Below are positions 3,467 to 51,751 of a stretch of DNA of 64,000 nt, piece after piece. This stretch comes from Deltaproteobacteria bacterium (GTDB taxonomy: Bacteria; Myxococcota_A; Polyangia; Polyangiales; Sandaracinaceae). The stretch lies in NCBI GenBank assembly GCA_017303575.1, contig JAFLCL010000001.1, positions 62,001 through 126,000 on the forward strand. The letters are read 5' to 3'. Position 1 is the stretch's first letter, and every line of letters begins with the position of its first letter. The translations under genes were made by a program, and so were the position numbers. The notes under the pieces are model-generated. The model did not search any database, was not told the origin of the DNA, and was given only the letters and a program-made list of their open reading frames with translations.

Positions 3467-4510
3467 GTGACCGAACCGACGCTTGCGTCCGAAAGCACCG
3501 AAGGTGACGCTCGGTGCATGGTGATCGCGGCCGCACGCTTCGATCTCGAGGAGACGCTCCGCGGAATCCGCGCGCGCACGCTCGATCCTCGCGACGGCGT
3601 CTACGGCCCCGGCTCCGTCAGCTGGCAGGTGAACCGCGAGATCGTGATCCTGCTCGGCGGTGGGCGCGCGGCGCTCTTGCAGCTCGCGCATCCCTACATC
3701 GCGCACGCCGTCGATCAGCACTCGGACACGCCCACCGATCCCGTCGGACGATTTCGTCGCACGTTCGAGCACGTGTTCGCGATGGTCTTCGGCGACCTCG
3801 ACATGGCCGAGCGATCCGCGCGACGCGTGCACGCGATCCACAAGCGCGTGAAGGGACCGATCGACGAGGACGTGGGGCCGTTCACCAAGGGCCATCGCTA
3901 CAGCGCGCTCGATCAGGGCGCACTCTTCTGGGTGCACGCCACGCTCGTCGACTCTGCGCTGCGTGTGTACGAGCAGGCGGTGGGACCGCTCTCGAGCTTC
4001 GATCGCGAGCGGTACTACGAGGAGTCGCGCGTGTTCGCTTCGCTCTTCGGCGTGCCACCCGAGACCACGCCCGAGAGCTTCGAGCGCTTCGAGCAGTACT
4101 TCGGCGACATGCTCGCGAGCTCGATGATCACGGCCTCGCGCCCGTGCCGAGAGCTCGCGGGGTTTCTCCTCCAGCCACCGCGCCGTCTCTATGCGCCGCT
4201 CACGCGCTGGTATCGCGGCGTGACGGCGGGGATGCTCACGCCGCGCCTGCGTCGTGAGCTCGATCTACCCTGGGGCCCGCTCGAGCGCGCGAGCGAGGCC
4301 GCGAGCTGGCCTGCGATCCGCGGCGTGGTGCGGACGCTGCCGCCGCGACTGCGCTACTTCCCCGACTACGTGGAGGCGATGCAGCGCATCCGCGAGCCCG
4401 GCGCACGCTCGCCCGATCGTGTGGGCCGCTTCCTCGAGACCGCCGCGCTCAACGCGATCCAGCCGAGCCGCGACGTGCTCGCCCGCGAAGCCGCGCGACG
4501 CAGCGGCTGA
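3467..4510 (+). CDS. MpaB / rubber-oxygenase-like family protein (DUF2236)
   Basis: 347 residues from GTG at 3467; the in-frame ATG at 3518 is an alternative start. The sequence follows the DUF2236 (MpaB/LcpB latex-clearing-type) pattern: a hydrophobic LLQLAHPYIAHAVDQHSD segment, GRFRRTFEHVFAMVFG, RVHAIHKRVKG, then YSALDQGALFWVHATLVDSAL. Some family members are haem b oxygenases acting on polyisoprene or terpenoid chains; conserved histidines in these segments fit haem ligation. The substrate here is unknown and no signal peptide is seen, so it is probably cytoplasmic or membrane-associated. It is convergent with a small Cys-rich lipoprotein gene, 17 bases away. Confidence 0.85.
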   Translation: MTEPTLASESTEGDARCMVIAAARFDLEETLRGIRARTLDPRDGVYGPGSVSWQVNREIVILLGGGRAALLQLAHPYIAHAVDQHSDTPTDPVGRFRRTFEHVFAMVFGDLDMAERSARRVHAIHKRVKGPIDEDVGPFTKGHRYSALDQGALFWVHATLVDSALRVYEQAVGPLSSFDRERYYEESRVFASLFGVPPETTPESFERFEQYFGDMLASSMITASRPCRELAGFLLQPPRRLYAPLTRWYRGVTAGMLTPRLRRELDLPWGPLERASEAASWPAIRGVVRTLPPRLRYFPDYVEAMQRIREPGARSPDRVGRFLETAALNAIQPSRDVLAREAARRSG

Positions 4511-4527
4511 TCAGCACCGCCGATCGA

Positions 4528-4803
4528 TCAGCAGGGCTCGAGCGCGGGCGGTACGAAGGGACCAGGCACCGCAGGCCAGAGGCACCGACCACCCGCGGCG
4601 TCGTAGTGCGCACCCTGATTGCTGCAGCACGTCTCGGCGGAGCCGTTACGGATCGACCAGCCCGCGCACGTCTGGCCGTCCATGCCGGTGCCATCGAGCA
4701 CGCGCGCGACCACACGGTCACAGCCCGACGAGAGCACGACGCCCGACAGGCCCGCCACCACCATCGCTGCGCGGAGCGCGCGTTCACGCGCGGGAGAGGA
4801 CAT
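4528..4803 (-). CDS. Small Cys-rich lipoprotein with VPGPFVPP signature (family member 1)
   Basis: 91 residues from ATG 4803 (a TTG at 4839 is an alternative). The signal peptide contains RALRAA and a lipobox giving Cys28. The mature part has the pattern C46-x12-C59-C60-x13-C74-x4-VPGPFVPP (79-86), followed by a final Cys91. Two other genes in this window (8868-9203 and 9203-9667) share the ALRAA signal-peptide motif, the same four-cysteine spacing and the identical VPGPFVPP tail, so this is a real gene family. The cysteines could form two disulfides or bind metal. The function is unknown. It is divergent from the ion-channel gene and convergent with the MpaB-type gene. Confidence 0.75.
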   Translation of the reverse strand: MSSPARERALRAAMVVAGLSGVVLSSGCDRVVARVLDGTGMDGQTCAGWSIRNGSAETCCSNQGAHYDAAGGRCLWPAVPGPFVPPALEPC

Positions 4804-4866
4804 CACGGGACTGTCGATCGTGACGCGCGATCGGGTCAACGGCCCCTCGTGCCATCATCGCGCGCG

Positions 4867-6009
4867 ATGACGCCGCGACGCTCTCGCTGGTTCGTGCTGC
4901 TGCCCGCGCTGGCGATGGGGCTCGCGGTGATCGCGACGCGATCCGCCGCGCAGCCGACGCCGATGGGACCGTCCGCGCCAGAGGCGTCCTCGGACACCGC
5001 GGAGACAGCCGCCGTGGCAGAGGCGAGCGCCGAAGCGAGCAGCGGAGACGGCGCCCCCGAAGCGGCAGAGGCAGACGACCGAGAGGCGGAAGACGGCATT
5101 CCGTCGCACGTGACCGTCGGCCTCTACATGCATCACATCCCCGAGCTCGATCTGCCGACCTCGAGCTACCTCGCCGACTTCTATCTCTGGTTCCTCTGGC
5201 GCGGTGAGCCCGACCCCACGGAGAACTGGGAGATCACGAACCTCGTCGAGGGCTGGGATCTCATGGCGGAGCCGCTCTACGTGGACGACGAAGGCGAGCC
5301 CGCGCCCGAGCTCCTGCCCGATGGTCGGCACTACCAGCTCTTCCACGTGCAGGGCCGCTTCGGTCATCCGTTCGACGTGCACGCGTATCCGTTCGACGCG
5401 CAGGACATCGTCATCGAGGTCGAGGACGGCGAGTACCTCACGGACGAGCTGATCTACGAGGTCGATCCCGGCTCGACGCTGCTCCATCCGACGCTCGAGG
5501 TGCCGGGCTGGGATCTCGGCACGCCGACACCGACGGTGATCGAGAGCGTGTACCCCACGAACTTCGGCGACATCCGCAACCCGGAGGGCGGCGATCACTA
5601 CTCGCAGTTCCGCTACGTGCTCCGCGTGCAGCGACCGGTGCTCGGCGCGTTCGTGAAGACGATCGTGCCCATCGCGGTCGTGATGATGATCACGCTCGTG
5701 ATGTTCTTGATCGACCCGAAGTACTTCGAGGGGCGGCTGGGCCTCGGCATCACGAGCTTGATCTCGGCCGTCGCGCTGCAGCTCACGGCCGCGGCCGATC
5801 TGCCTGCGACCGGCTACCTCGTGCTCCTCGATCACGTCTACAACGCGAGCTACGTCGTGATCTTCGTGGCGCTGCTCGAGAGCGTGATCTCGGTGCGCAT
5901 CGCCGATCAGGGCGACGTGGCCCGCGCGCGCCGGCTGGACCTCGGGACGCTCGTGGTGCTGAGCCTCGCCTTCTTCGGCACGGTCGCGGCCCTCGTCGTG
6001 ACGCGCTGA
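4867..6009 (+). CDS. Pentameric ligand-gated ion channel homologue (prokaryotic Cys-loop family)
   Basis: 380 residues from ATG 4867. Residues 1-29 are a signal peptide (ending AAQ), 30-76 an acidic Ala/Glu linker, and about 80-255 an extracellular ligand-binding-type domain. That domain includes the invariant YPFD (174-177) of the Cys-loop, without the cysteines, as in bacterial members such as GLIC and ELIC. Four membrane helices follow at about 262-283 (with the conserved Pro of M1), 291-310 (pore-lining M2), 318-342 and 357-378. It should form a pentameric channel gated by an unknown ligand. The short M3-M4 loop is typical of prokaryotic members. The downstream vWA-protein gene follows after 45 bases in the same direction. 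Confidence 0.88.
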   Translation: MTPRRSRWFVLLPALAMGLAVIATRSAAQPTPMGPSAPEASSDTAETAAVAEASAEASSGDGAPEAAEADDREAEDGIPSHVTVGLYMHHIPELDLPTSSYLADFYLWFLWRGEPDPTENWEITNLVEGWDLMAEPLYVDDEGEPAPELLPDGRHYQLFHVQGRFGHPFDVHAYPFDAQDIVIEVEDGEYLTDELIYEVDPGSTLLHPTLEVPGWDLGTPTPTVIESVYPTNFGDIRNPEGGDHYSQFRYVLRVQRPVLGAFVKTIVPIAVVMMITLVMFLIDPKYFEGRLGLGITSLISAVALQLTAAADLPATGYLVLLDHVYNASYVVIFVALLESVISVRIADQGDVARARRLDLGTLVVLSLAFFGTVAALVVTR

Positions 6010-6054
6010 GCCGAGACGCTCGGAACTCTCGACTCGAGCCGCTGTCGATGCGGG

Positions 6055-8016
6055 ATGCGCAGGATCACGCTGCTCTCGCTGATGGCGCTCGCGAGCACCC
6101 CGCACGTCGTATCCGCGCAGTCGACCCACCTCGGCGCGCGGACGATGCCGATCGCCTCGCCCGCTCCGACCGCGCCCACCACGACGTTCACGCTGCCGTC
6201 GTCCGCGCCACCGCCAGGGCCCGCCGTCGAGCTCGCGAGGCACCGCATGCACGTGACGATCGACGGTGGCTTCGCCGTCGTGTCCGAGGAGCTCACGCTC
6301 GAGGTCTCGAGCCGTCCGCGCTCTGCGCACGTCACGCACCTCGCCGTGCCTGCGAGGTCGGAGCTCGTCGCGCTCGAGGCTTGTCAGGCGGGCACATGCC
6401 GCGATGGCACCGCGGTGACGAACGCCAGACAGGTCTTCGAGTCCGCGCAGTACGGCGCTCGCACCACGGGCGGCGCGCCGCTCGCGCTCGCGCAGCGGGA
6501 CGGAGATCGCGTGTCCGTGCGGGTCGCCGGGCTCGAGACCGGCACCGCGACGATCCGCGTGGTCTGGAGCACGCCGACGGAGCGCATCGGTGGGCAGGAG
6601 CGCATGCGCATGCCCGCGCGCCCCGACTCGGCGGAGATCGTGCTGGTCAGTCCGTCGCTCGAGGATCTCGCGATCGACGGCGATCCCAGCCTCACCGAGA
6701 CTCCGCTCCTTCGGGCGTTCGACCTCGTCGGCACGGCGCCAGTCGGCGCGCCGACGCTCGAAGTAGGACGCATCACCGAGCTCGGTCGTGGCTTCGTGCG
6801 CGTGACCGCGCCATCCGTGCCCGCCCCCGCGCGACCCGTGGTGATCCTCGTGGACGCGTCGCCCAGCGCCCTGCGCAACGTCGAGGCGATGGAGGCTGCG
6901 CTCGCGATGCTGCTCGAGGAGACCCCGGACGGATCGAGCGTCAGGGTGATCGCGTTCGCGCGGCAGGCGCGCACGATCGCGGAAGGTGAGGTCGCGGCGC
7001 TGCGCCGAGATGGCGTCCGTGTGCCCGGCGACCTCGGGCCGTCGACCTCGCTGCGCGCGGCGCTCGCGAGCCTCGGGGACGTACCCGAAGGGGCAACGCT
7101 CGTGTGGCTGAGCGATGGCGCGGGGAGCCCCAACGAGGCCGATCGGGAAGCGCTCGCGCGGCTCGGAGTGCGCGAGCACGTAGTCGCTTCGACGGGATCG
7201 CAGCAGGTCGGCAACGTCGATCCCGTGGGCGATCCGTGGGCCGCACGCGCACGCCTGGCGGCGAGCTTCGCCGAAGCGATCGAGACGACGATCGGCGAGC
7301 GCGTCGTGAGGGTGCTCGCCGGTGGGTCTGTCCTCGTCTCCGTGCGTTCGGTCGACGACGTGCCGTCCACCGCCGTCGCGTCGCGCGTCCCCCTGATCGC
7401 GAGCGGCCCCGTGATCCGTGCGTCGCTCGGATGGGTCACACCCGAGGCGCTGCTCACGCTCGACCCGCGTGATCGGCATGCGGCGAACAAGACCGGCCGC
7501 GGCCTCTTCGGCGTCTTCGTGGGGGGCGGCGGCCTCGAGGGAAGCCGCCGGCCTTCGATCCGAATCTGCGTCTGCGGTGGCACGGACGGTCGGGGCTCCG
7601 TGAGCCGCGAGTCCTACGCGCGGATGATGGCGAACCTGCGCGCTCCCGTGAGCGCGTGCTTCGCCAGGGCGCGCGACGGTGACCCGCGCTACGAAGCGCG
7701 AGCGACGTTCGAGCTCGCGCTCCGTGGAAACGAGCTCGCTGCCGCCCACGTCGAGACCGAGGACCCCGAGCTCCGGACGTGTCTGCTCGAGACGCTCGAT
7801 GACCTCGTGATCCCGCCGGCCGAGGGCCCGCAGAACGGCACGACCGTGATCCGTTATCCGTTCGTGTCGCGGGCATCGGACACGCGCATCGAGGCGGCCC
7901 CGCTCTCGCTCGACACCACGGAGATCATCGACGGTGCGTTCGCGAGCGAGCCATCGGTCCCGCCGATGTCTCTTGTCGCGAACATCGCCGACGCCGATTC
8001 GACGACGACGCCCTGA
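6055..8016 (+). CDS. Secreted VIT/vWA-domain protein with AgmX/PglI-like C-terminus
   Basis: 653 residues. Signal peptide 1-21 (VVSAQ). Residues about 60-175 resemble a VIT (inter-alpha-trypsin) domain. About 260-430 is a von Willebrand A domain with the MIDAS start D267-A-S-P-S271. The C-terminal 535-640 region (RAPVSACFARA ... RTCLLETLDDLVIPP) resembles the tail domain of myxobacterial AgmX/PglI-type gliding and adhesion proteins. Such proteins are exported and may bind partners through the metal site. It lies 45 bases downstream of the ion-channel gene in the same direction and is back-to-back at its stop with the diiron-protein operon. Confidence 0.75.
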   Translation: MRRITLLSLMALASTPHVVSAQSTHLGARTMPIASPAPTAPTTTFTLPSSAPPPGPAVELARHRMHVTIDGGFAVVSEELTLEVSSRPRSAHVTHLAVPARSELVALEACQAGTCRDGTAVTNARQVFESAQYGARTTGGAPLALAQRDGDRVSVRVAGLETGTATIRVVWSTPTERIGGQERMRMPARPDSAEIVLVSPSLEDLAIDGDPSLTETPLLRAFDLVGTAPVGAPTLEVGRITELGRGFVRVTAPSVPAPARPVVILVDASPSALRNVEAMEAALAMLLEETPDGSSVRVIAFARQARTIAEGEVAALRRDGVRVPGDLGPSTSLRAALASLGDVPEGATLVWLSDGAGSPNEADREALARLGVREHVVASTGSQQVGNVDPVGDPWAARARLAASFAEAIETTIGERVVRVLAGGSVLVSVRSVDDVPSTAVASRVPLIASGPVIRASLGWVTPEALLTLDPRDRHAANKTGRGLFGVFVGGGGLEGSRRPSIRICVCGGTDGRGSVSRESYARMMANLRAPVSACFARARDGDPRYEARATFELALRGNELAAAHVETEDPELRTCLLETLDDLVIPPAEGPQNGTTVIRYPFVSRASDTRIEAAPLSLDTTEIIDGAFASEPSVPPMSLVANIADADSTTTP

Positions 8017-8868
8017 TCAGGCCGCGCGCTTGTCGGCCCAGGCCTTCTTGCCGGGCAGACCGAGCTCCTCGAAGCGCGGCACGATCACGTCTTCGAGCAC
8101 GGCGTAGAGGATCTCGCGACCGTCCTTGCCGTCGATCGCCCCGAGCGCGGCGAGCTCGCTGCGGAGCGCCTCGGAGATCGGCGGAGGCAGCGGCATGGCG
8201 GCGAGCATCTTCTGCTCGATGCTCCCGAGCGCGAGCGGCAGGTAGCGCGCGAGGCCCTCACGCTCTTCCGCGTCGAGCATCGGCAACCAATCTCCGAGCA
8301 AAGACCAGCCCAGCTTCGCGTGCAGGATCTCGTCGGCCGAGAGCTGCTCGACCACGCGGTGGATGCGCGGCTCGGTCGTCACCTCGCGCTCCTCGGCGAG
8401 CAGCGACGTGCTGATCGTCTCGCTCAGACACGACGCGAAGATCACGTTGCGGAGCGCGCGCTCCCGCGGCGTGCGGCCCACGTGCTCGGGCAGCGGCACG
8501 GTCGCGAGATCGCCCTCGATCTCGGGCGTTCCGCCGAGGTAGCGCACGACGTCGAGGCACAGCGACGCGTGGCGGATCTCGTCCATCGCGCTGCGGAGGA
8601 TCACGGTCTTGTACTCGATGCTCGCCTCGGCCTCGATCAGCTGCGGCAAGAGGCGCGAGAACACGCACGAGCTCTGGTGCTCGTGCAGCGCGCGCGCCCG
8701 CCACGCCTCGCGCGCGATCTCGATCGCGCGTGGCGAGGCATCGCCTTCGTAGACCACGCCGTCGGGGATCTCGGGCGCCTCGTCGCCTCGACGCAGCGCC
8801 GTGCGCACCAGGCGCTCGTGCTCGGTGCGGAGAGGCGAGCTGCCGACGCGCAGACGCAGGGTGCCCAT
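8017..8868 (-). CDS. Ferritin-like diiron protein, AurF-type motif pair
   Basis: 283 residues from ATG 8868; an in-frame extension upstream would overlap the preceding gene and is rejected. Two matching metal motifs are visible: E63-x32-D96-E97-x2-H100 and E150-x28-D179-E180-x2-H183. This is the duplicated E-x(28-37)-DExxH arrangement described for AurF-type non-haem diiron N-oxygenases, set in a four-helix ferritin-like fold. The protein is therefore likely an oxygen-activating diiron oxidase or oxygenase, substrate unknown. It has no signal peptide. Its start overlaps the stop of the upstream lipoprotein gene (TGATG), so it is the last gene of a four-gene coupled operon with a molybdopterin oxidoreductase. 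Confidence 0.8.
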   Translation of the reverse strand: MGTLRLRVGSSPLRTEHERLVRTALRRGDEAPEIPDGVVYEGDASPRAIEIAREAWRARALHEHQSSCVFSRLLPQLIEAEASIEYKTVILRSAMDEIRHASLCLDVVRYLGGTPEIEGDLATVPLPEHVGRTPRERALRNVIFASCLSETISTSLLAEEREVTTEPRIHRVVEQLSADEILHAKLGWSLLGDWLPMLDAEEREGLARYLPLALGSIEQKMLAAMPLPPPISEALRSELAALGAIDGKDGREILYAVLEDVIVPRFEELGLPGKKAWADKRAA

Positions 8869-9203
8869 CAGCTCGACTCCTCGATCGGCGGGACGAACGG
8901 CCCCGGCACGCCCACGAAGCACTCCGCGAAGCCGCCGTCGTACACGTACCACTCGCCTCCACCGAGCACGCAGCAGATGCGATCGCGCGGGATGAGGAGG
9001 CGACAGTCGGCATCACCCGGAAAGTGCGCGTCGACGAAGGCGTCGTCGTCGTAGAAGACGAGCGGCGCGTCCATCGTCGCGTCGGGAGCGCTCGTCCCCG
9101 CGTCGCCGTCGGTGCTCGGCGGGCTCGAGCATCCAGTGACGACGAGACCGCACGCGACCTGCGCGGCGCGCAGCGCGATCGAGCGCCCGCGCGAGCCGCG
9201 CAT
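8868..9203 (-). CDS. Small Cys-rich lipoprotein with VPGPFVPP signature (family member 2)
   Basis: 111 residues. The signal peptide contains ALRAA and a lipobox at VVTGC (Cys25); then an Asp-Ala-rich linker (30-65). The mature domain follows C67-x9-C77-C78-x16-C95-x3-VPGPFVPP (99-106). Both ends are coupled: its ATG overlaps the stop of the preceding lipoprotein gene (TGATG at 9201-9205) and its stop overlaps the ATG of the diiron-protein gene (TGATG at 8866-8870). Location is presumably the periplasmic face of a membrane, while the flanking enzymes lack signal peptides. No function is known. Confidence 0.8.
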   Translation of the reverse strand: MRGSRGRSIALRAAQVACGLVVTGCSSPPSTDGDAGTSAPDATMDAPLVFYDDDAFVDAHFPGDADCRLLIPRDRICCVLGGGEWYVYDGGFAECFVGVPGPFVPPIEESS

Positions 9204-9667
9204 CAGCTCACCATGGACGGCGGCACGAACGGACCAGGGACCGCGATCGCGCAGAAGCTCGACTCACCGTCCCAGAAGCCACCCGCGAGCTCGCAGCACG
9301 GCTGGTTCGTGGGTGGGAAGTCGGGGCCGCAGCCGCCATCGCCCGCGAACGTGTAGGCGTCCTCGATGGTGGGCGCGTCTTCGCCCGCGCTGGGCGCGTC
9401 CTCGCCCGTCGAAGGCGCATCGGCGGCGGCGAACGCGTCGAGACCGACGTCGGGGCCTGGTCCGATCTCGAGCGGCACGGGGGCATCGATCGGCGCGTCG
9501 GGCGTCTCCGCGACGAAGGCGTCGGGGCTCGGCGCCGTGAACGCATCGGGGGTGTCGGTCCCGCCGCCGCAGGCAGCGAGGCCGACGATGGAAGCCGAGA
9601 GCGTCGCGGCGCGCGCTGCGCGGAGGGCGCGCGCGCGCCGGAGCGTGAGAGCATCGAAGTCAGTCAT
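9203..9667 (-). CDS. Small Cys-rich lipoprotein with VPGPFVPP signature (family member 3)
   Basis: 154 residues. The N-terminus contains RALRAA and a lipobox (GLAAC, Cys33). A long Asp-Ala-Pro linker (37-108, repeated DAF/DAP units) holds the domain away from the membrane. The C-terminal domain is C113-x10-C124-C125-x13-C139-x3-VPGPFVPP (143-150), homologous to the other two members in this window. Its ATG overlaps the TGA of the molybdopterin oxidoreductase gene (ATGA at 9664-9667), and its stop overlaps the next lipoprotein start. Strict coupling suggests fixed stoichiometry with the flanking redox enzymes. The biochemical role is unknown. Confidence 0.8.
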   Translation of the reverse strand: MTDFDALTLRRARALRAARAATLSASIVGLAACGGGTDTPDAFTAPSPDAFVAETPDAPIDAPVPLEIGPGPDVGLDAFAAADAPSTGEDAPSAGEDAPTIEDAYTFAGDGGCGPDFPPTNQPCCELAGGFWDGESSFCAIAVPGPFVPPSMVS

Positions 9668-11838
9668 GCCATCGAGGATGCGGCAGCGCGCGCGTCGCTG
9701 TCCACCTCGGGGCAGGATCGCAGCGAGAGGATCGGAACGCCGCTGAAGCCCGCGTTGCCGCTCAGTCGATCGAGGAACGTCTCGTCGGTCACGTCGTTCA
9801 CCGACACGCCCGCGTGCTCGCTTGCGACGCTCATGCGCGTGCCTTCACGCGTGTGCCCCCACCCGTGCGGCAGGCTCACCACGCCGCGCATCACCTCGTC
9901 CGAGATCTCGACGGGCACCACGATGCGACCGACGCGCGTGCGCAGCTCGGCCTCGTAGCCGTCGCGGAGCCCGTGCGTCCTCGCGTCGTCGGGGTGCACG
10001 AGCAACGTGCAGCGTCGCGGTCCCTTCACCATCTTGCTGGCGTTGTGGAGCCAGCTGTTGTTGCTCCTCAGGTGTCGGCGGCCGATCAGCACGAGCGATG
10101 GAGCCGCTTCGCTCAGACGCGCCTCGAGCGCGCGTGCCTCACGCACGAAGAGCTCGGGGGCGAGGTCGACCTTGCGATCACGTGTGTAGAGGCGCGAAGG
10201 GAGGCGCGGCTCGAGCGGCCCGAGATCGAAGCCGTGCGGATGATCGCGCAGCACCTTCAAGGAGAGGCGCGGACCGTCGCGGCGCGAGAGACCATACGGA
10301 CCCGCACGAAGCCCTGCGTCCACCACCGCGTCGGGCCCGCGCAAGAGCGCGGCGAGGCTGGCGCGACGAAGGCCGCGCGGCACCACGAGGCCCGCGGTGA
10401 GGTGGGCCATGATCTCCCAGTCGTGCCGCTCGTTCTCCCCGCGTGGGAACACCGGCGGCACGTACTTCGCGGCGTTGCGTACGGAGAACACGTGCAGCGC
10501 GAGATCGTAGTGCGCGCGCTGGAGCGGCGAGACCGGCGGCAAGATCACGTGGGCGTGGCGCGTCGTCTCGTTGAGGAACGCATCGACACACACGACGTGC
10601 TCGAGCGTCGCGAGCGCGCGCTCGAGGCGTGGGCCGTTGGGCGCAGAGAGCGCGGGATTGCCCGCGAACGTGAGCAGCGCGCGAACCTGTCCGGGGCCCG
10701 ACGTCTCGATCTCGTCGGCGAGCGTCGCGACGGGGATCTCACCCATCAGCTCCGGCAGCCCGCGCACACGGCTCCGCCAGCGGTCGTACCCCTTCGACAT
10801 GCCCACGATCCGCAGCACCTCCATCGGGTCGACAGCGGGGGTCGCGAACATGGCCCCGCCGACCTCGTCGAGCCTTCCGCACACCACGTTGAGCGCGACG
10901 AGCAGCCACGACGCGAGCGTGCCGTGCTCTTGTGTGCACGTGCCGATGCGACCGTACGCGACCGAGGTGCGCGCCGCGGAGAACGCACGCGCGAGCCTCG
11001 CGATCGTCTCGGCCGACACGCCCGTGCGCTCCGCGACGCGCGAAGGCGCGAACGCTCGCGACAGCGCCCGCAAGCGCTCGAGCCCCGCGACGTGATCACG
11101 CAGCCGACCCACTCGTTCGAGCCGCTCCTCGAAGATCACGTGGAGCATCGCGAGCACGAGGAACGCGTCGGTGCCCGGCCTCACGAAGACGTGCTCGTCG
11201 GCGACCTCGGCCGTCTCGGTGCGTCGCGGATCGATCACCACGACCTTGCCGCCTCGCTCGCGGATCGCGCGGATGCGCCGCTTCATGTCGGGGGCGTTCA
11301 TGAGCGAGCCGTTGGACACGAGCGGGTTCGCCCCGACGATCAGGAAGTAGTCGGTTCGATCGACGTCGGGGATCGGGACCATGCCGACGTGGCCGAACAT
11401 CTTCTCGGCGGCGAGCATCTGGGGCGCCTGATCGGTGGAGCTCGCCGAGCACACGTTCTTCGTGCCGAGGAGGCGCGTGAGCGGCAGGCCGTGCGTGAGG
11501 AGCCCGAGGTTGTGCGCCGTCGGGTTGCCGTAATACACGGCCATCGCGTCCTTGCCGTGATCGCGACGGATGCGCGCGAAGCCCTCGATCGCGATTCGGA
11601 GCGCCTCGTCCCAGCTCGCCTCACGAAAGCCCGAGCCGTCTCGGATCAGCGGCGTACGAAGTCGATCGGGATCGTGATGGAGCTCGCCCATCGCGTGGGC
11701 CTTGGGGCAGAGGTAGCCACGCGAGGCCGGATCCTCGTCGTCGCCGCGGATCGACACGACACGATCGGCTTCGGTCTCGACGACGATGCCGCACGCTGCT
11801 TCGCACAGCGTGCACGTCGCGATGTGTCGTTCGACCAT
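9664..11838 (-). CDS. Molybdopterin oxidoreductase (formate dehydrogenase/nitrate reductase-like)
   Basis: 724 residues from ATG 11838, which is preceded by a strong GAGGAGGAG ribosome site; a longer in-frame reading is rejected. The N-terminus carries a 4Fe-4S motif C9-x2-C12-x3-C16-x27-C44, followed by the bis-MGD-binding molybdopterin domain and a C-terminal dinucleotide-binding domain. The predicted metal-ligand region reads GTKNVCSASSTDQ, with Cys130 as a candidate Mo ligand. There is no Tat signal, so it is cytoplasmic. It heads an operon with two VPGPFVPP lipoproteins and a diiron ferritin-like protein. The substrate cannot be told from sequence. Confidence 0.85.
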   Translation of the reverse strand: MVERHIATCTLCEAACGIVVETEADRVVSIRGDDEDPASRGYLCPKAHAMGELHHDPDRLRTPLIRDGSGFREASWDEALRIAIEGFARIRRDHGKDAMAVYYGNPTAHNLGLLTHGLPLTRLLGTKNVCSASSTDQAPQMLAAEKMFGHVGMVPIPDVDRTDYFLIVGANPLVSNGSLMNAPDMKRRIRAIRERGGKVVVIDPRRTETAEVADEHVFVRPGTDAFLVLAMLHVIFEERLERVGRLRDHVAGLERLRALSRAFAPSRVAERTGVSAETIARLARAFSAARTSVAYGRIGTCTQEHGTLASWLLVALNVVCGRLDEVGGAMFATPAVDPMEVLRIVGMSKGYDRWRSRVRGLPELMGEIPVATLADEIETSGPGQVRALLTFAGNPALSAPNGPRLERALATLEHVVCVDAFLNETTRHAHVILPPVSPLQRAHYDLALHVFSVRNAAKYVPPVFPRGENERHDWEIMAHLTAGLVVPRGLRRASLAALLRGPDAVVDAGLRAGPYGLSRRDGPRLSLKVLRDHPHGFDLGPLEPRLPSRLYTRDRKVDLAPELFVREARALEARLSEAAPSLVLIGRRHLRSNNSWLHNASKMVKGPRRCTLLVHPDDARTHGLRDGYEAELRTRVGRIVVPVEISDEVMRGVVSLPHGWGHTREGTRMSVASEHAGVSVNDVTDETFLDRLSGNAGFSGVPILSLRSCPEVDSDARAAASSMA

Positions 11839-43197: not shown

Positions 43198-45102
43198 GTG
43201 GCGCGCTTCATCGACGAGCTCAAGCGGACTCACTACTGCGGCTTGCTCCGCGAGGGCGACATCGACCGCGAGGTCGTGCTCTTCGGCTGGGTGCACGCGC
43301 GCCGCGACCACGGCGGCTGCATCTTCATCGATCTCCGAGATCGCGAGGGCCTCGCGCAGGTGATGTTCGATCCGCAGATCGCCGCACAAGCGTTCGCGGT
43401 CGGCGACCAGGCGCGCAGCGAGTGGGTGCTCGGCGTCCGCGGCAAGGTGCGCGACCGCGGCGCGATGCGGAACCCGAAGATGCCGACGGGCACCGTCGAG
43501 ATCGTCGCGCTCGAGGCGGTGGTCTTCAACAAGGCCGAGACGCCCGTCTTCCCGATCGAGGACGACATCGACACGAATGAGGAGAAGCGCCTCGAGCACC
43601 GCTACCTCGACCTCCGACGTCCCCGCCTGCAGCACAACGTGATGACGCGCTCGCGCATCTATCACCACACGCGCAACCACTTCGCGGACCACGGCTTCGT
43701 CGAGGTCGAGACGCCGATCTTCGTGAAGTACACGCCCGGCGGCGCGCGCAACTTCCTCGTGCCCGCGCGCCTCAACCCCGGCATGTTCTACGCGCTCGCG
43801 GAGAGCCCTCAGCTCTTCAAGCAGCTGCTGATGGTCGCGGGCTTCGACCGCTACATCCAGATCGTGAAGTGCTTCCGCGACGAGGATCTGCGCGGCGATC
43901 GTCAGCCCGAGTTCACGCAGATCGACGTCGAGATGTCGTTCGTGAACCAGGACGACATCTTCGGGATCATCGAGAAGCTCGTGATTCGTCTGTGGAAGGA
44001 GATCCACGGCGTCGATCTCACGCAGCGCTACCCCGCGGTCGTCGGCGACGACGGCGTCACGCGGCACTTTCCGCGCATGAAGTTCGACGAGTCGATGCGT
44101 CGCTTCGGCAACGACAAGCCCGACATGCGCTTCGGGCTCGAGCACGTCGATCTCACCGAGCAGCTCATCGCCCACGCGGGCGGCGGCGTCCCGATGCTCA
44201 CGCCGATCGCCGAGAAGTTCGCGAGCGGCGCGTACCGGCGCGATCTGCCGGAAGAGATCTTCAAGGGCCTGCGTGTTCCTGCCGAGCAGGCGGGAGGCCT
44301 CTCGCGCGCCGAGCTCGACAAGCTCGAGGGCTTCGTGAAGCAGATGGGCGCCAAGGGCCTCGCGCGCGCCAAGGTCGGCCCGAGCGGCGAGTGGCTGCAG
44401 TCGCCGTTCGCGAAGACCGCGACGCCCGACTTCGTGAAGGCGGTGAACGAGGCGCTCGGCGCGAAGGAAGGCGATCTCCTCCTCTTCCAGTTCGGTCCCG
44501 AGACGGCGGTGCACACGGTGATGGCGAACCTCCGCCTCCACCTCGGCAAGAAGCTCGGCCTCATCCCCGAGGTCGGCGCGAAGTCGAAGTCGCACGAGAC
44601 GGGCGACTGGAACTTCCTGTGGGTCGTGGAGCCTCCGCTCTTCGAGCGAGGCGACGACGGCAAGAGCTGGGCGGCCGCACACCATCCCTTCACGCGTCCG
44701 CACGACGGCTCACTCGAGGACCTCGAGAAGGATCCCGGCAAGGTGCTCTGTTACCGCTACGACCTCGTGCTCAACGGCGTCGAGCTCGGCGGCGGCTCGG
44801 TGCGATTGCACGATCCCGAGGTGCAGAAGCGCGTCTTCGCCGTGCTCGGCATCGACGACGCCACGGCGCAGGAGAAGTTCGGTTTCTTGCTGAACGGCCT
44901 CAAGCACGGCGCGCCTCCGCACGGCGGCATCGCGCTCGGCCTCGATCGCCTCTGCATGCTGCTCACCGAGAGCGAGAGCCTGCGCGACGTGATCGCGTTC
45001 CCCAAGACGGGCAAGGGCTCGGACCTCATGACCGGCGCGCCGAACACGGTGCTCCCCGAGCAGCTCGCGGAGCTCAAGGTCCGTTCGCTCGTCGAGGGCT
45101 GA
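43198..45102 (+). CDS. aspS: Aspartyl-tRNA synthetase, bacterial type, probably non-discriminating
   Basis: 634 residues from GTG 43198, behind a GGAGGA site. Anticodon-binding OB domain (REVVLFGWVHARRDHGG), class II motif 2 (KCFRDEDLRGDRQPEFTQID), the bacterial GAD insertion (about 310-440) and motif 3 (GGIALGLDRLC). It charges tRNA-Asp. The RRDHGG His occupies the position where Pseudomonas-type non-discriminating enzymes have His and E. coli has Leu, suggesting it also charges tRNA-Asn and needs GatCAB. That specificity is inferred. A terminator follows. Confidence 0.95.
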   Translation: MARFIDELKRTHYCGLLREGDIDREVVLFGWVHARRDHGGCIFIDLRDREGLAQVMFDPQIAAQAFAVGDQARSEWVLGVRGKVRDRGAMRNPKMPTGTVEIVALEAVVFNKAETPVFPIEDDIDTNEEKRLEHRYLDLRRPRLQHNVMTRSRIYHHTRNHFADHGFVEVETPIFVKYTPGGARNFLVPARLNPGMFYALAESPQLFKQLLMVAGFDRYIQIVKCFRDEDLRGDRQPEFTQIDVEMSFVNQDDIFGIIEKLVIRLWKEIHGVDLTQRYPAVVGDDGVTRHFPRMKFDESMRRFGNDKPDMRFGLEHVDLTEQLIAHAGGGVPMLTPIAEKFASGAYRRDLPEEIFKGLRVPAEQAGGLSRAELDKLEGFVKQMGAKGLARAKVGPSGEWLQSPFAKTATPDFVKAVNEALGAKEGDLLLFQFGPETAVHTVMANLRLHLGKKLGLIPEVGAKSKSHETGDWNFLWVVEPPLFERGDDGKSWAAAHHPFTRPHDGSLEDLEKDPGKVLCYRYDLVLNGVELGGGSVRLHDPEVQKRVFAVLGIDDATAQEKFGFLLNGLKHGAPPHGGIALGLDRLCMLLTESESLRDVIAFPKTGKGSDLMTGAPNTVLPEQLAELKVRSLVEG

Positions 45103-45213: not shown

Positions 45214-45567
45214 ATGGACACCAAGAAGAACCGCACGCTGTCGGCGACGGACATCGTCACCGAGAGCAAGACCGTCGGGCGTCGATCGGCGCTCGGCCTC
45301 CTCGGAGCCACGGGTGGCGCGCTCGCTGCGTTGGGCATCGTCGGCGCGAGCGCCCGCGCCGGAGCGCAGGTCACCGATCGCGATCCGAGTGACCCCGCCT
45401 GCCAGGGTCGAGGCGCTGGTGGCGGCTTCACGGACACCGATCCCAGCGATCCTGCGGGCGCAGGGCGAGGACGCGAGGGTGGCGCGGCGGGCATCAGCGA
45501 CTGCGACCCGACCGATCCCGCGGGTGAAGGACGTGGACCAGGATCGCGTACGCCGCCCACGCGATGA
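45214..45567 (+). CDS. Small Tat-type exported protein with DxDPxDP repeats
   Basis: 117 residues. A twin-arginine-like signal (GRRSALGLLG, Arg23-Arg24, then a hydrophobic Ala/Gly/Leu stretch to about 50) is followed by three copies of a 14-residue unit: TDRDPSDPACQGRG (54-67), TDTDPSDPAGAGRG (73-86) and SDCDPTDPAGEGRG (95-108). The Asp pattern could bind Ca2+; two lone cysteines lie in units 1 and 3. No family is recognised. Genes on both sides are transcribed in the same direction but spaced, so it is probably an independent unit. Confidence 0.7.
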   Translation: MDTKKNRTLSATDIVTESKTVGRRSALGLLGATGGALAALGIVGASARAGAQVTDRDPSDPACQGRGAGGGFTDTDPSDPAGAGRGREGGAAGISDCDPTDPAGEGRGPGSRTPPTR

Positions 45568-46882: not shown

Positions 46883-48337
46883 ATGCGCGCTCGTCTCTCG
46901 TTCGCGATCGCGCCTCTCGGGGTGAGCGTCGCGCTCTTTGCGCTCGGCTGCCCTCCTGCGTCCTCGTCGGTCGATGCCGGTACCGACGCGGGGGTGCCTG
47001 CGTGCGACACCGCGGCCTCGTGCACGCTCGCCGCGTGCGCCAGCACGCCGTTCTGTGTGACCTGCGACGACGCCTGCAACCCTTGCGAGCGATGCATGCG
47101 CGGTGTGTGTGTGCCCATCGCTGATGGCGAGCGCTGCACGAGCGGCACTTGCTACGCAGGCGCCTGCTGCACCGGGTGTTGGGACGGGTCTGCATGCGTC
47201 GCGGGCAACGATCCGCTGATCTGTGGTGCAGAGGGCGCAGGCTGCGAGGCGTGCGACGCTTTCTCGACGTGCGGTGAGCTCGGGTGCGCGCTGAGCGCCG
47301 ATGCAGGTGCGATCGCAGGCGGCGACGTGACCTGCGCGGTCACCGCGACCAACGTCGCGTGCTCGGGCTCGAACCGCCTCGGACAGCTTGGAGTCGGAAC
47401 GACCGATCCGGTGACGATTCCCGTGCCCGTCACGCCCGCGGTCGGTGTGGTGATCGGCGGCGACGCGGCGGACGGCCTCACGTGCTTCCTCGGTGCCGAT
47501 GGAACGCTCGGATGTGCGGGCGCGAACAACTTCGGACAGCTCGGTCGCGGCGACACGTCCGATCGTGCTCGCGCCGAGCCGGTCATCGGACCCACACGCT
47601 TCGGTCACGTCGCGGTCGGTGCAACGCACGTGTGCGCGCTCTCGCGACCGGGCGCCCTCTTCTGTTGGGGCAACAACTTCTACGGACAGCTCGGTCTCGG
47701 CGACACGGGCCCTCGGCGCGCACCCACGCCCGTCGGCATCGACGAGGGCTGGCGCGACGTGGCGGTCGGCCTCGATCACAGCTGCGCGATCCGCGGCGAG
47801 AGCGGTGAGCTGCTCTGCTTCGGGAACGACAACACAGGTCAGCTCGGTGACGACGGCAACATGCCGCGTGCGATCGCCGTGCGGATCGGCGAGGGCTACG
47901 CGCAGGTCAGCGCGGGGACCGGACACACGTGCGCGATCCGCGAGGGTGGCGTGCTCGAGTGCTGGGGCGCGAACGTGCACGGACAGCTCGGTCTGGGCGA
48001 CACGATGCTGCGCCGCGTGCCCACGCGCGTCGGCGACGGCTTCACGCAAGTGAGCGCAGGCAACGGCCACACGTGCGCCGTGCGCAGCGACGGCACGGTC
48101 CAGTGCTTCGGCGAGAACGACGACGGCGAGCTCGGCGCAGGCACGATGGGCACGGACGAGCTCGCGCCCATCGCCGTGGCAGGCGTCGCGAGCGCGCTCC
48201 GTGTCGACGTCGGCACCGATCACTCGTGCGTGACACTGGTCGATCGATCGGTGCAGTGCTGGGGCGCGAACCGCGCGGGCCAGCTCGGTGCCCCCACGCC
48301 CGCCGCGCGCGGAAGCGCCGAGGCGTTCCCTCCGTAG
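46883..48337 (+). CDS. RCC1-repeat lipoprotein with Cys-rich N-terminal module
   Basis: 484 residues. Lipobox (ALGC), Asp-Ala linker, then a densely Cys-rich segment (35-140, CC and C-x2-C groups). From about 150 to the end there are RCC1/BNR-like repeats with the hallmark (W/S)GxNxxGQLGxG, spaced about 50 residues apart (GSNRLGQLGVG, GANNFGQLGRG, GNNFYGQLGLG, GNDNTGQLG, GANVHGQLGLG, GENDDGELGAG, GANRAGQLG). This gives about seven blades of a beta-propeller. Probably a surface binding protein; partner unknown. Confidence 0.82.
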   Translation: MRARLSFAIAPLGVSVALFALGCPPASSSVDAGTDAGVPACDTAASCTLAACASTPFCVTCDDACNPCERCMRGVCVPIADGERCTSGTCYAGACCTGCWDGSACVAGNDPLICGAEGAGCEACDAFSTCGELGCALSADAGAIAGGDVTCAVTATNVACSGSNRLGQLGVGTTDPVTIPVPVTPAVGVVIGGDAADGLTCFLGADGTLGCAGANNFGQLGRGDTSDRARAEPVIGPTRFGHVAVGATHVCALSRPGALFCWGNNFYGQLGLGDTGPRRAPTPVGIDEGWRDVAVGLDHSCAIRGESGELLCFGNDNTGQLGDDGNMPRAIAVRIGEGYAQVSAGTGHTCAIREGGVLECWGANVHGQLGLGDTMLRRVPTRVGDGFTQVSAGNGHTCAVRSDGTVQCFGENDDGELGAGTMGTDELAPIAVAGVASALRVDVGTDHSCVTLVDRSVQCWGANRAGQLGAPTPAARGSAEAFPP

Positions 48338-48341
48338 CGGA

Positions 48342-50018
48342 TCAGCTGGGGATGTCGCCGCCGATCGGCGGGACCACGAAGTACACGTCGCGCGTGTCGA
48401 GCACCGTGACGCCATCGCCGACGACGTCGACGAGCGCCCGGTAGAGCTGTGGCGCGGCGGTCGGCATCACGGTTGTGTTCATGCGCGGGATGATGTCGAA
48501 GCACACGGGCGTGCCCGGCGTGACGTCGGGGAACGTCTCGTCCCTCCCGTCCCCATCGGTATCCGTGGTGGGCAGGCCCGCGACGCACACGATCGACGGA
48601 TCACGGGGATCCATCACGCCGCCTGCGGTGTTCGGCTCGATGCGCTCGATGAAGATCGTGGCGTCCACCGACTCGCCGTCGTCCGCGTCGCGCGCGCGCG
48701 CCGTGATGTCGAGCGGCGTCGAGCTCGCGAGCGTCGAGATCGCATCGACCACCGCGGCGTCGACAGTGGCCTCGCCTGCCTCCGCGAAGATGAGCGGCGC
48801 ACCGCTCCCGTCGACGGCGCCCGTCCCTCGCACGAGCGGCGCCCACTCCGTCGAGCTGCCCGTCGGTCCGAGCACCAGGAGGCGTCCACGGATCGCAGCG
48901 AACGCATCGAGGATGTCCATTGCGCTGGGGAAGGTCTCGCAGCTCGAGCACGTCGCGCCAGCGCACGGCGTGCCTCCGACGGTGTGCGACTCGCTGTAGC
49001 GCTCGTCACCGATCACCACGAGGATCGGCAGCGCGCCCTCGCGTACACAGCCCAGACCGACCGCGCCCGCGGGACAGCTGGGCGCACGCATCAACGGCCA
49101 ACGGCTCGTGTCGCCCGTCGCCCACACCCACGCGGCCTGCGCGTACGGCTCGTGCACGGGACGGCAGTCCGCCGTGAGTGAGCTGAGCGCCGTGTTGACC
49201 GCCGCGGTGTCGGCGGTGCTCGTCTGCGTCTGCTCGATGCCCACGCACGTCGAGCGCGAGTAGCTGCTCTGCGGGCACACGTCGAACTGTCCGACGCCGA
49301 GCTGCACGTCGGGGATCGCCGTCGTGATGCCGGGGATCACGGTCGTCATCAGCGAGGTGCGAACCGTGTCGATGTAGCCCTGCATGGAGATCGACGTGTC
49401 GATGATGAAGTGCACGTCCGCGCGCTGGATGTTCGTCGCGAACACGAGCGTGTCGCGCGCCGGCGTGGGCACGCCCTCGAACGGGACGAGGAAGAAGAAG
49501 TCGCCACGCGCGCGCGGGCTGTCGGTCGCGTCGCGCGGATCGGTCGAGGCTGCCACCTCGACGAGGTCGCTCACGCCGTCGTCGTCCGAGTCCTCGTCGC
49601 GCGGATCCGATCCAGCCGCGATCTCGTCTGCGTCCGGAAGTCCATCGCCGTCGCTGTCGGTGTCGCGAAAGTCCGCGCGCCCGTCGGCGTCGGTGTCGAA
49701 CGGCAGCGTCGTGAGCACGTCGTCACCCGCTTCGTCGCGATCGGAGATGCCGTCTCCGTCGCTGTCGTCGTCCATCGAGTCGGGCACACCGTCGGCGTCG
49801 GTGTCGACGGCTCCGTCGCCTTCCTGCAGATCGGTGATCGTGTCGCCGTCTCCATCGGTCCCGGGGTCGGTGCGCGACCCCACGTCGAGGCCACTCGTGC
49901 TCCCCGTGTCTTGTCGCGCCGCATCGCCGCGCGAGCCGACCGGCGTCGAGTCGCACCCGCCGAGTCCGAGCGAGACCACACACGTCACGAGCACCGTCAC
50001 ACGCTGGGCACCGGTCAT
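48342..50018 (-). CDS. Lipoprotein with thrombospondin type-3 repeats and vWA domain
   Basis: 558 residues from ATG 50018, behind GGAGGT. Lipobox GLGGC, then acidic thrombospondin type-3-like Ca2+-binding repeats (about 55-155, many DxDxDG units). A vWA domain follows with MIDAS start DTSIS (about 215) near ADVHFIIDTSISMQG. The cysteines in the vWA part are paired. A metal-dependent adhesion role at the surface is likely. It is convergent with the RCC1 lipoprotein (4-base gap) and divergent from the carboxylesterase. Confidence 0.83.
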   Translation of the reverse strand: MTGAQRVTVLVTCVVSLGLGGCDSTPVGSRGDAARQDTGSTSGLDVGSRTDPGTDGDGDTITDLQEGDGAVDTDADGVPDSMDDDSDGDGISDRDEAGDDVLTTLPFDTDADGRADFRDTDSDGDGLPDADEIAAGSDPRDEDSDDDGVSDLVEVAASTDPRDATDSPRARGDFFFLVPFEGVPTPARDTLVFATNIQRADVHFIIDTSISMQGYIDTVRTSLMTTVIPGITTAIPDVQLGVGQFDVCPQSSYSRSTCVGIEQTQTSTADTAAVNTALSSLTADCRPVHEPYAQAAWVWATGDTSRWPLMRAPSCPAGAVGLGCVREGALPILVVIGDERYSESHTVGGTPCAGATCSSCETFPSAMDILDAFAAIRGRLLVLGPTGSSTEWAPLVRGTGAVDGSGAPLIFAEAGEATVDAAVVDAISTLASSTPLDITARARDADDGESVDATIFIERIEPNTAGGVMDPRDPSIVCVAGLPTTDTDGDGRDETFPDVTPGTPVCFDIIPRMNTTVMPTAAPQLYRALVDVVGDGVTVLDTRDVYFVVPPIGGDIPS

Positions 50019-50098
50019 CGAGACCTCCGAGCGCCATGGTACGCGAGGTGCGCCGACCACGGATCGCGTCGGCGCGCGGAGCACGATACCGTCTCGGC

Positions 50099-51751
50099 AT
50101 GCGCGCTTCGCTCTTCGGTGCACCCACGTTGGTCCTCGCATCGCTCGCGATGGGCTGTGGCGATCCTCCCGCGGGCCTCGACGCCGCAGCGAGCCCCGAT
50201 GCGGCTGAGCCCGCCCCCGACGCGGCCGTCCCGATCGATGCGTTCGAGCCGCCGCCGCCCGAGGTCACGATCGACGGCCTCGGTACGGTGCGAGGCATCT
50301 ACGAGAGCGGCGCGCGCTCGTTCTATGCGATCCGCTACGCCGAGCCGCCGGTGGGCGCGCTGCGCTGGCAGTCTCCCGTCGCGAGCGGCGCGTGGGAGGG
50401 CACGCTCGACGGATCGTCGAAGCCCGATGCGTGCGCCCAGTCGGCGCTCTCGTTCGGCTCGCTCGGCAGCGAGGACTGCCTCTTCCTCAACGTTCACACA
50501 CCGAACCCGGCGCCGACGAACGCGCCCGTGATCGTGTGGATCCACGGCGGTGCCTTCGTCTTCGGCGAAGGCGTGCAGACCGATCGCGGCACGCGTGGTG
50601 ATCTGCTCGCGGCCGAGGGTGCCGTCGTCGTCAGCATGAACTACCGCCTCGGCGCGTTCGGCTTCTTCGTGAACGACGCGCTCGAGACGTCGGGCAACGC
50701 AGGCTTCGAAGATCAGATCCTCGCGCTCGAGTGGGTGCGCGATCACATCGCAGACTTCGGCGGTGATCCGTCGAACGTCACGATCGTCGGCGAGTCGGCG
50801 GGCGGTCTCTCCGTCTGTCTCCACCTCGTCGCCCCGCGCTCACGTGGCCTCTTCCAGCGCGCGATCAGCGAGAGCGGCCTCTGTGATTCCACGCTCTCGC
50901 CGCGCGAGGAGCGACTCGAGGTGTCGAACGATCTGGTCGCCGCGCTCGGCTGCGACACGGCGTCCGACGAAGGCGCGTGTCTCCGCGACGCGAGCCTCGA
51001 CGCGGTGCGCGATGCGAGCGGTCTCGACGGGGTGTTCGGCACACTCACCGCGCGGGTCCGGCCGTGGTGGCCGTACGCCGACGGCACCGTGATCCCCGAG
51101 CAGTTCCGCGCGGCCGTGGAGAATGATCGGGCCGCCGAGGTCCCCATGATCGTCGGCTGGAACCGTGACGAGGGCACGCTCTTCGTCGATCTCGCCGAGC
51201 GCAGCGGTGTGACGGCCGACGAGACGACCTACCACTCGCTCGCGGCCTCGCTCGGCGCGAGCGTCGGAGCAGAAGCCAGCGTCGTCGAGGCACAGTACCC
51301 GCTCGCCGACTACGACGACGCCGGCGCCGCGATCGGCGCGATGCTCGGACACGCCGCGCTCGCTTGTCCTTCGCGTCGCGCGGCGCTGCTCCTCGCCGAG
51401 CAAGGCTACGACGTGCACGTGTACCGCTTCGAGTTCCCCGACGCGCCGTTCCAGCTCGTGGAGCGCCCCGAGCGCGAGCTCGGCGCGTTCCACTCCGCGG
51501 AGATCCAGTTCGTCTTCGCGCACTCGGCGCGCCTGGGCCGACCGCGCTTCATGGAGGACGAGGCCGCGCTCTCCGCCGCGATGCAGGGCGCGTGGTTGCG
51601 TTTCGTGCGCACCGGAGATCCGAGCGATGCGTCGCTGACGTGGCCCACGTTCTCGGCCGCGAGCGACACGCACGTGATCTTCGATCGCACCGTGACCACG
51701 GGCACCGCCGCGGATCGCGAGGCCTGCATGCTCTGGGATCCCGCACGGTGA
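50099..51751 (+). CDS. Carboxylesterase type B lipoprotein
   Basis: 550 residues from ATG 50099. Lipobox AMGC (Cys20), an Asp-Ala-Pro linker (25-50), then a full carboxylesterase B domain: EDCLFLNVHTP, WIHGGAFVFGEG (oxyanion hole), GESAGG (nucleophile Ser), and a late acid/His pair in the GAFHSAEIQFVF region. It hydrolyses carboxylic esters outside the inner membrane. The stop overlaps the GTG of the MOSC gene (GTGA at 51748-51751). Confidence 0.9.
   Translation: MRASLFGAPTLVLASLAMGCGDPPAGLDAAASPDAAEPAPDAAVPIDAFEPPPPEVTIDGLGTVRGIYESGARSFYAIRYAEPPVGALRWQSPVASGAWEGTLDGSSKPDACAQSALSFGSLGSEDCLFLNVHTPNPAPTNAPVIVWIHGGAFVFGEGVQTDRGTRGDLLAAEGAVVVSMNYRLGAFGFFVNDALETSGNAGFEDQILALEWVRDHIADFGGDPSNVTIVGESAGGLSVCLHLVAPRSRGLFQRAISESGLCDSTLSPREERLEVSNDLVAALGCDTASDEGACLRDASLDAVRDASGLDGVFGTLTARVRPWWPYADGTVIPEQFRAAVENDRAAEVPMIVGWNRDEGTLFVDLAERSGVTADETTYHSLAASLGASVGAEASVVEAQYPLADYDDAGAAIGAMLGHAALACPSRRAALLLAEQGYDVHVYRFEFPDAPFQLVERPERELGAFHSAEIQFVFAHSARLGRPRFMEDEAALSAAMQGAWLRFVRTGDPSDASLTWPTFSAASDTHVIFDRTVTTGTAADREACMLWDPAR

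Follow-up and report, generated by a model that had tools for sequence, protein, structure and literature searches.

A short gene for a twin-arginine repeat protein

The window analysed here, 64,000 nucleotides of a contig from a Sandaracinaceae genome, contains at 45214..45567 on the forward strand an ATG-initiated gene for a precursor-like protein of 117 residues (P0001), which has an orthologue in a genome of the same genus and paralogues in its own. The protein opens with an N-terminal leader, MDTKKNRTLSATDIVTESKTVG (residues 1-22; 45214..45279, +), whose core TLSATDI (45235-45255, +) belongs to a motif TL-x-x-[DE]-[IL] that is kept family-wide and also occurs in enzyme-adjacent peptides of other phyla. 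A twin-arginine export signal follows (45280..45366, +), made up of the arginine pair at residues 23-24 (VGRRSALGLLGATGG; 45280-45285, +) and a stretch rich in Ala, Gly and Leu, and ending, by eye, near AGA at residues 49-51. The pair is invariant in 19 aligned members, so that the twin-Arg within a signal peptide that marks a Tat substrate is present by sequence in all of them, in agreement with the original prediction of a signal of this type.

Behind the signal lie three units of the pattern DxDPxDPAxxGRG, namely DRDPSDPACQGRG (residues 55-67, D55-G67; 45376..45414, +), DTDPSDPAGAGRG (residues 74-86, D74-G86; 45433..45471, +) and DCDPTDPAGEGRG (residues 96-108, D96-G108; 45499..45537, +), spaced by 19 and then 22 residues. 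A unit of 14 residues occurring three times had been proposed for this protein; the three occurrences hold under the strict pattern, and each is 13 residues long rather than 14. Shuffling the mature part 20,000 times never produced even a single looser copy, and the ORF is the sole stretch of at least 40 aa in the window with three such motifs, a single loose match being found in one other ORF stretch at about 48344-50264 (-).

The upstream neighbour is an ORF ending at 45102 (aspS by eye), separated from the gene by a gap of 111 bp, and the downstream neighbour is an ORF of 201 aa. Further along the window, 46883-48337 (+) encodes repeated GxxHxCAxxxxGxxxCWGxNxxGQLG-like units and resembles an RCC1-type repeat protein by eye, and 48342-50018 (-) is a long secreted-looking ORF with acidic repeats of the DGDG type, von Willebrand/thrombospondin-3-like by eye. 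The latter has a DGDGD-rich orthologue in the same-genus genome (L029), and similar ORFs adjoin family members at two other loci (L043 and L045).

Conservation of the gene and its peptide family

The orthologue in the same-genus genome (G001:C46) is 74% identical to the window protein, and its flanking genes are homologous to the window flanks on both sides. The two sequences differ 23, 18 and 51 times at codon positions 1, 2 and 3, respectively, and dN/dS in the window frame is 0.21/0.73, about 0.3. In one antisense frame, reverse shift 1, dN/dS comes out much alike (0.22/0.62) because the third positions coincide; the ratio alone thus leaves the strand unfixed, and it is the family relatives that fix it. 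Third-position bias, dN/dS and the orthologue with homologous flanks together indicate a gene, and the reading as a chance open frame, plausible at first sight since long frames are common in GC-rich DNA, can practically be dismissed against the orthologue, the paralogues, the dN/dS and the conservation across the family. The original prediction had taken a frame that relatives do not conserve as the sign of such an accident, and orthologue, paralogues and relatives all keep the frame.

Six family members occur in the genome itself (C1, which is the window copy, C13, C46, C168, C290 and C508), and the own-genome loci L006-L008 turned out to be non-members on reading. A DNA-pattern scan built on just the window peptide had no matches. 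In the first round of searching relatives, 7 of 38 genomes, the own genome included, had a match, of which G018 was then discarded; a search with a 19-row profile gave matches in 15 of the 377 genomes of the phylum, scored on 13 candidate stretches per genome so that absences are soft, and 11 genomes were kept, all from three families (f1, f4 and f5) of the same order. The phylum matches that were dropped as chance (L059-L062, in G350, G182, G359 and G198) were frames without a protein combining RR and repeats, the same ground on which G018 was removed. Members were picked by motif and start string, whereby L033 was missed and L038b is partial, and several of the short family genes escape the gene caller (L029, L030 and L043 are among the loci that carry no family flag).

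Across 35 members, 115 [ST]DxD units were counted, 2 to 5 per protein, with two main types, DxDPxD (49) and DxDxGxxxD (60). Positions that never vary in the 19-row alignment are Leu9, both arginines, Asp in the first and in the last unit, and a few others. Several members show, by eye, a lipobox-like Cys after the signal and may, judging from this residue, be lipidated, and many end in GRxC, an ending that the window protein lacks.

No Pfam or NCBIfam family was found for the window protein, which agrees with the earlier impression of an undescribed family. Scans of this protein and a spread of 11 members gave only weak matches to signal-like models; the sole Pfam match of the window protein up to E 10 was QcrA_N (E 0.29), and in the NCBIfam scan it did not match the Nif11-like leader model (TIGR03798). 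The suggestion that the acidic units bind Ca2+ found no such backing, as the window protein had no Pfam match to the Ca2+-binding repeat families EF-hand, RTX and TSP3 and the Asp spacing differs between DxDPxD and DxDxGxxxD units, a variability that would seem unlike a fixed Ca2+ loop.

A JmjC_2 oxygenase linked to the peptide genes

Among 34 neighbourhoods (33 fetched and the window), the standout neighbour family besides the peptides is a protein of about 394 aa with a JmjC_2 domain (PF08007), belonging to the Fe(II)/2-oxoglutarate oxygenases. Its gene directly adjoins the peptide gene in 14 of the 34, divergently in 8 pairs and in tandem with the peptide first in 6, with gaps of 39-384 bp, and is non-adjacent in the other 20; in the neighbourhoods examined, neither the window copy nor its orthologue has one as a neighbour. 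The short ORF beside a dedicated enzyme that is typical of RiPP precursors is therefore found for the family and not at the window locus. The own genome has one close enzyme, G000:C290, which adjoins a paralogous peptide.

PF08007 scored above cut-off in all 7 enzymes scanned and in the Streptomyces clavuligerus enzyme described below. Scanning 13 genomes that carry the peptide gave 27 JmjC_2 matches, 16 of them at E<=1e-23; 14 of these 16 are peptide neighbours, the other two, both in G006, are not adjacent to a peptide, and no peptide was found in the flanks of 6 of the 11 weaker JmjC_2 genes. A close enzyme, by a cut-off (E<=1e-138) that was set after the list was seen, is present in 12 of the 377 phylum genomes, 11 with both genes, 1 with the enzyme only and 0 with the peptide only (Fisher p 2.5e-20, uncorrected for kinship). 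G147 has a close enzyme and yielded no peptide, even with a wider profile. As the substrate of the enzyme, gene linkage would point to the peptides rather than to a ribosomal protein.

Other recurring neighbours noted by eye, FG-GAP-like, kinase-like, ruvAB-like and transketolase-like, look like local synteny and were set aside as partners. At one locus (L120, G006:C24; 6063-7652), a JmjC_2 gene directly follows a 105-aa ORF ending in AKGGVGDDMYNATAGADWDGQ, which resembles another precursor type.

Predicted structure of the enzyme

The motifs HxDxH...GxKxW and PRGxxH, which we take to be the metal and 2OG ligands, are present in 76 of 80 enzyme loci (the best 80 of at least 563). The enzyme model (pLDDT 87.9) has NO66 as its best structural match (Z 31.4, rmsd 4.8, 386 residues, 22% identity), followed by MINA53, with YcfD-type entries lower at Z about 19-20. 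Modelled alone, the C-terminal 99 residues (pLDDT 94.8) match the same domain of NO66 and MINA53 at Z 9.6-12.1. The 37 rows below these comprise, by our own sorting, 7 YcfD-type proteins, 7 carbamoyltransferases and 23 entries that are either RiPP enzymes or domains that bind leaders; the RiPP-type matches include MccB, TigE, PbtF RRE, ThcOx, TbiB1, PqqD, TruD, McbB and others. Each Z as low as those of these rows (5.2-7.0) proves little alone, and it is the RiPP kind of most non-oxygenase rows that makes the predicted resemblance of the C-terminal domain to RRE domains suggestive.

Leaders and cores beyond myxobacteria and beyond Tat

The family reaches far wider than myxobacteria. More distantly related enzymes of the phylum adjoin peptides that share the leader, lack a Tat signal and carry Asp-rich cores of other kinds, for instance KKTLTDADIV followed by a (GDSDAG)n core in G283, and TTLTDDEIETL (G209) and TTINDDEIETL (G383) followed by DADSD-like repeats, and the G269 peptide has the leader ETLTDDEIETL. 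In S. clavuligerus, a 48-aa 'hypothetical protein' with the accession WP_009999493.1 (MDDKKTSLEPDEIEV...ADNDPSDPPIAIADPDPFDPVI) lies right before a 'cupin domain-containing protein', which is the JmjC_2 enzyme, and combines the leader with the core DNDPSDP/DPDPFDP.

Scanning GTDB contigs for the enzyme gave at least 563 relatives, of which the best 80 were kept as named loci, and a profile built from 35 myxobacterial leaders was run on their 15,650 ORF stretches. Among these best 80 of at least 563 loci, 37 leader matches were obtained at E<=2, all but one (36/37) within 2.3 kb 5' of the enzyme; with the six myxobacterial loci removed, 30 of 31 matches, in 24 of 74 loci, still fell within 2.5 kb 5' of it. 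Dense D-x-D ORF stretches in the same best 80 of at least 563 were concentrated in the first kilobase 5' of the enzyme (45/949) and the second (22/933), compared with 26/8,856 in the bins outside these two kilobases and the enzyme. In 64 of the 80 loci (best 80 of at least 563), the leader motif TL-x-x-[DE]-I, a D-x-D repeat ORF or both lay just 5' of the enzyme; the remaining 16 had neither by these rules, and in several of them (L219, L227, L241, L250, L252, L254, L220, L224 and L242) a plausible peptide can be seen by eye.

Record titles of the best 80 of at least 563 loci include Pararhodobacter, Roseicyclus, Boseongicola, Maricaulis, Brevundimonas, Gammaproteobacteria, Acidobacteriota, Chloroflexi (L205), Bacteroidetes (L194) and Flavobacteriales (L246), many of them metagenome bins whose labels may err. 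The leader profile transfers across these phyla and the cores vary, as in (DPDKKPA)n of a Bryobacteraceae bin of the Acidobacteriota (L184), DPIGEGSDYD (L180) and (GDSDAG)n (L158), all three beside the enzyme. Leader and D-x-D core without a Tat signal occur in S. clavuligerus, Chloroflexi and other loci, and in Maricaulis- and Brevundimonas-type peptides RR and this core are present and the TLxxEI leader is missing. A conserved leader set apart from a variable core, as in RiPP precursors, is thus found except in these two types.

Some loci hold arrangements of a different kind. A JmjC_2 gene, a radical SAM gene and a precursor with a Nif11-like leader (TIGR03798) lie together in L165 (G359, 8651-11446) and L166 (G349, 4144-6945). 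On a Nostoc paludosum contig (L222), a single stretch holds two JmjC-like ORFs, a radical SAM-like gene, a C39-peptidase ABC exporter and a small ORF that is Nif11-like by eye, apparently another JmjC-containing peptide cluster. A 415-aa ORF of Pararhodobacter aggregans (L193, 4617-5922, -) consists mostly of near-identical GLTDSDSGAGADPAGNGRG units, the number of which differs strongly between the relatives L192 and L193.

A proposed route from leader to export

Tight linkage to a JmjC oxygenase, together with a leader conserved in front of the RR, points to a modified precursor peptide, and we consider it probable that the gene encodes a RiPP-like precursor, guided by its leader and hydroxylated on its D-x-D repeats before Tat export. 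The precursor would consist of the N-terminal leader (MDTKKNRTLSATDIVTE), the twin-Arg signal and the D-x-D repeat core; the cytoplasmic JmjC_2 oxygenase G000:C290 would dock the leader, likely through its C-terminal RRE-like domain, and would hydroxylate the repeats, most likely at the Asp beta carbon within [ST]-D-x-D. Oxidation would take place in the cytoplasm, which supplies Fe(II) and 2-oxoglutarate, and Tat would then export the modified peptide, from which the signal would be cleaved. Such docking would not apply to every member, since the Maricaulis- and Brevundimonas-type peptides lack the leader.

That the JmjC_2 enzyme modifies these peptides in some way is very likely. Asp is favoured as the target because D-x-D is common to the cores, whereas Arg, Gly and Cys come and go, and modification on Asp seems likely to us even though the residues that JmjC_2 enzymes are known to target are His, Arg or Orn, not Asp. 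The same pathway could act on another target, with the enzyme hydroxylating the Arg of GxGR or carrying out some other oxidation on the repeats. An Arg after a Gly run follows 92 of the 115 units (loose pattern), and YcfD, a structural relative of the enzyme, hydroxylates Arg of ribosomal protein L16. BipG acts on Orn (PMC12707348). Nevertheless, cores lacking this Arg adjoin the enzyme (S. clavuligerus, L158, L180 and L184) and the element common to the cores is D-x-D, which makes this variant unlikely compared with Asp hydroxylation.

Since no enzyme gene adjoins the window copy or its orthologue, action on the window peptide is what we infer: a single enzyme would serve scattered substrates, six in the own genome, and the window peptide, a likely substrate, would be acted on in trans. 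Prochlorosins are reportedly a case in which one enzyme serves many precursors. Alternatively, only enzyme-adjacent members might be modified, the window copy being an orphan paralogue, a former substrate or drifting, for which its isolation from the enzyme and its missing GRxC ending could speak; this is rather improbable, as leader, RR and three units are intact and shared with the orthologue and dN/dS is about 0.3.

A plainer reading, in which the repeats form an unmodified secreted peptide that binds metal or matrix and the oxygenase acts elsewhere or is linked by regulation only, draws on the capacity that acidic repeats could have to bind cations unaided and on the many neighbourhoods without an adjacent enzyme. 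We regard it as improbable in view of the adjacency in several phyla, the leader common to members whatever their export type and the near-perfect co-occurrence with the enzyme. For the hydroxylated precursor that we prefer, the exported (hydroxy)Asp-rich polypeptide could, in the periplasm or outside, bind a metal ion, a somewhat doubtful guess made because of (hydroxy)Asp chemistry and the exported copper-binding RiPPs described elsewhere (PMC12636315).

Taken more broadly, our results raise the possibility, whose chances we see as close to even yet short of it, of a new widespread ribosomal-peptide class, with a TLxxEI leader and D-x-D cores that would be Asp-hydroxylated by a NO66-like JmjC oxygenase with a leader-binding domain. 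Export would depend on lineage, with Tat used in Proteobacteria and Myxococcota, a signal of the lipoprotein type in Bacteroidota and other groups and, for peptides that have no signal, probably ABC exporters, and the products would be repetitive beta-hydroxyaspartate polymers, presumably metal ligands. If true, a peptide-modification system present in several phyla was probably overlooked since its precursors are short, repetitive and signal-bearing, and it would offer a genetically encoded source of hydroxyaspartate-rich polymers.

Relation to known systems

The JmjC_2 family is known mainly for its ribosomal oxygenases, and a large bacterial branch of it would hereby gain a likely substrate. 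The partner enzyme shares with NO66, MINA53 and YcfD the same domain (JmjC_2, PF08007), the predicted fold and the C-terminal winged-helix domain, whereas those enzymes act on His or Arg of ribosomal proteins and the partner enzyme is linked to small exported Asp-repeat peptides. It is conceivable from this that in human NO66 and MINA53 the winged-helix domain derives from, or acts like, a peptide-docking domain. RRE-like folds fused to PF08007, a layout that the partner enzyme may share, and bacterial homologues in RiPP-like contexts have been described, in a report whose accessible part does not identify the precursor or mention Asp repeats or Tat (PMC12710340).

The peptide family itself, Asp-repeat Tat peptides with a JmjC enzyme, was not found described in the open-licence literature, an absence that is weak evidence. 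The biphenomycin RiPP pathway, with its JmjC ornithine hydroxylases BipG, BpmG and PbsQ, is comparable in that a ribosomal precursor is the substrate of a JmjC or cupin-like hydroxylase, which there modifies a single Orn of a short cyclic peptide together with an MNIO, a radical SAM enzyme and an arginase (PMC12707348, PMC12257519). The system here differs in its D-x-D repeats, in its mostly single enzyme and in its Tat export. The precursors of bufferins, oxazolins and DAG-RiPPs also carry signal peptides and undergo their modification in the cytoplasm, ahead of export, and some of them have repeated metal-binding motifs or are lipidated, but they combine MNIO enzymes, Cys motifs and Sec or lipoprotein signals, in place of the JmjC enzyme, Asp motifs and Tat signal of our family (PMC12636315). 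SmaO, an Asp beta-hydroxylase acting on a RiPP precursor in a graspetide pathway, is reported to work at the precursor N-terminus, not on the repeats of an exported peptide (cited in PMC13097080). An oxygenase-modified ribosomal peptide is therefore a known kind, and what appears to be new is the family of precursors, with its leader, its breadth and its export by Tat.
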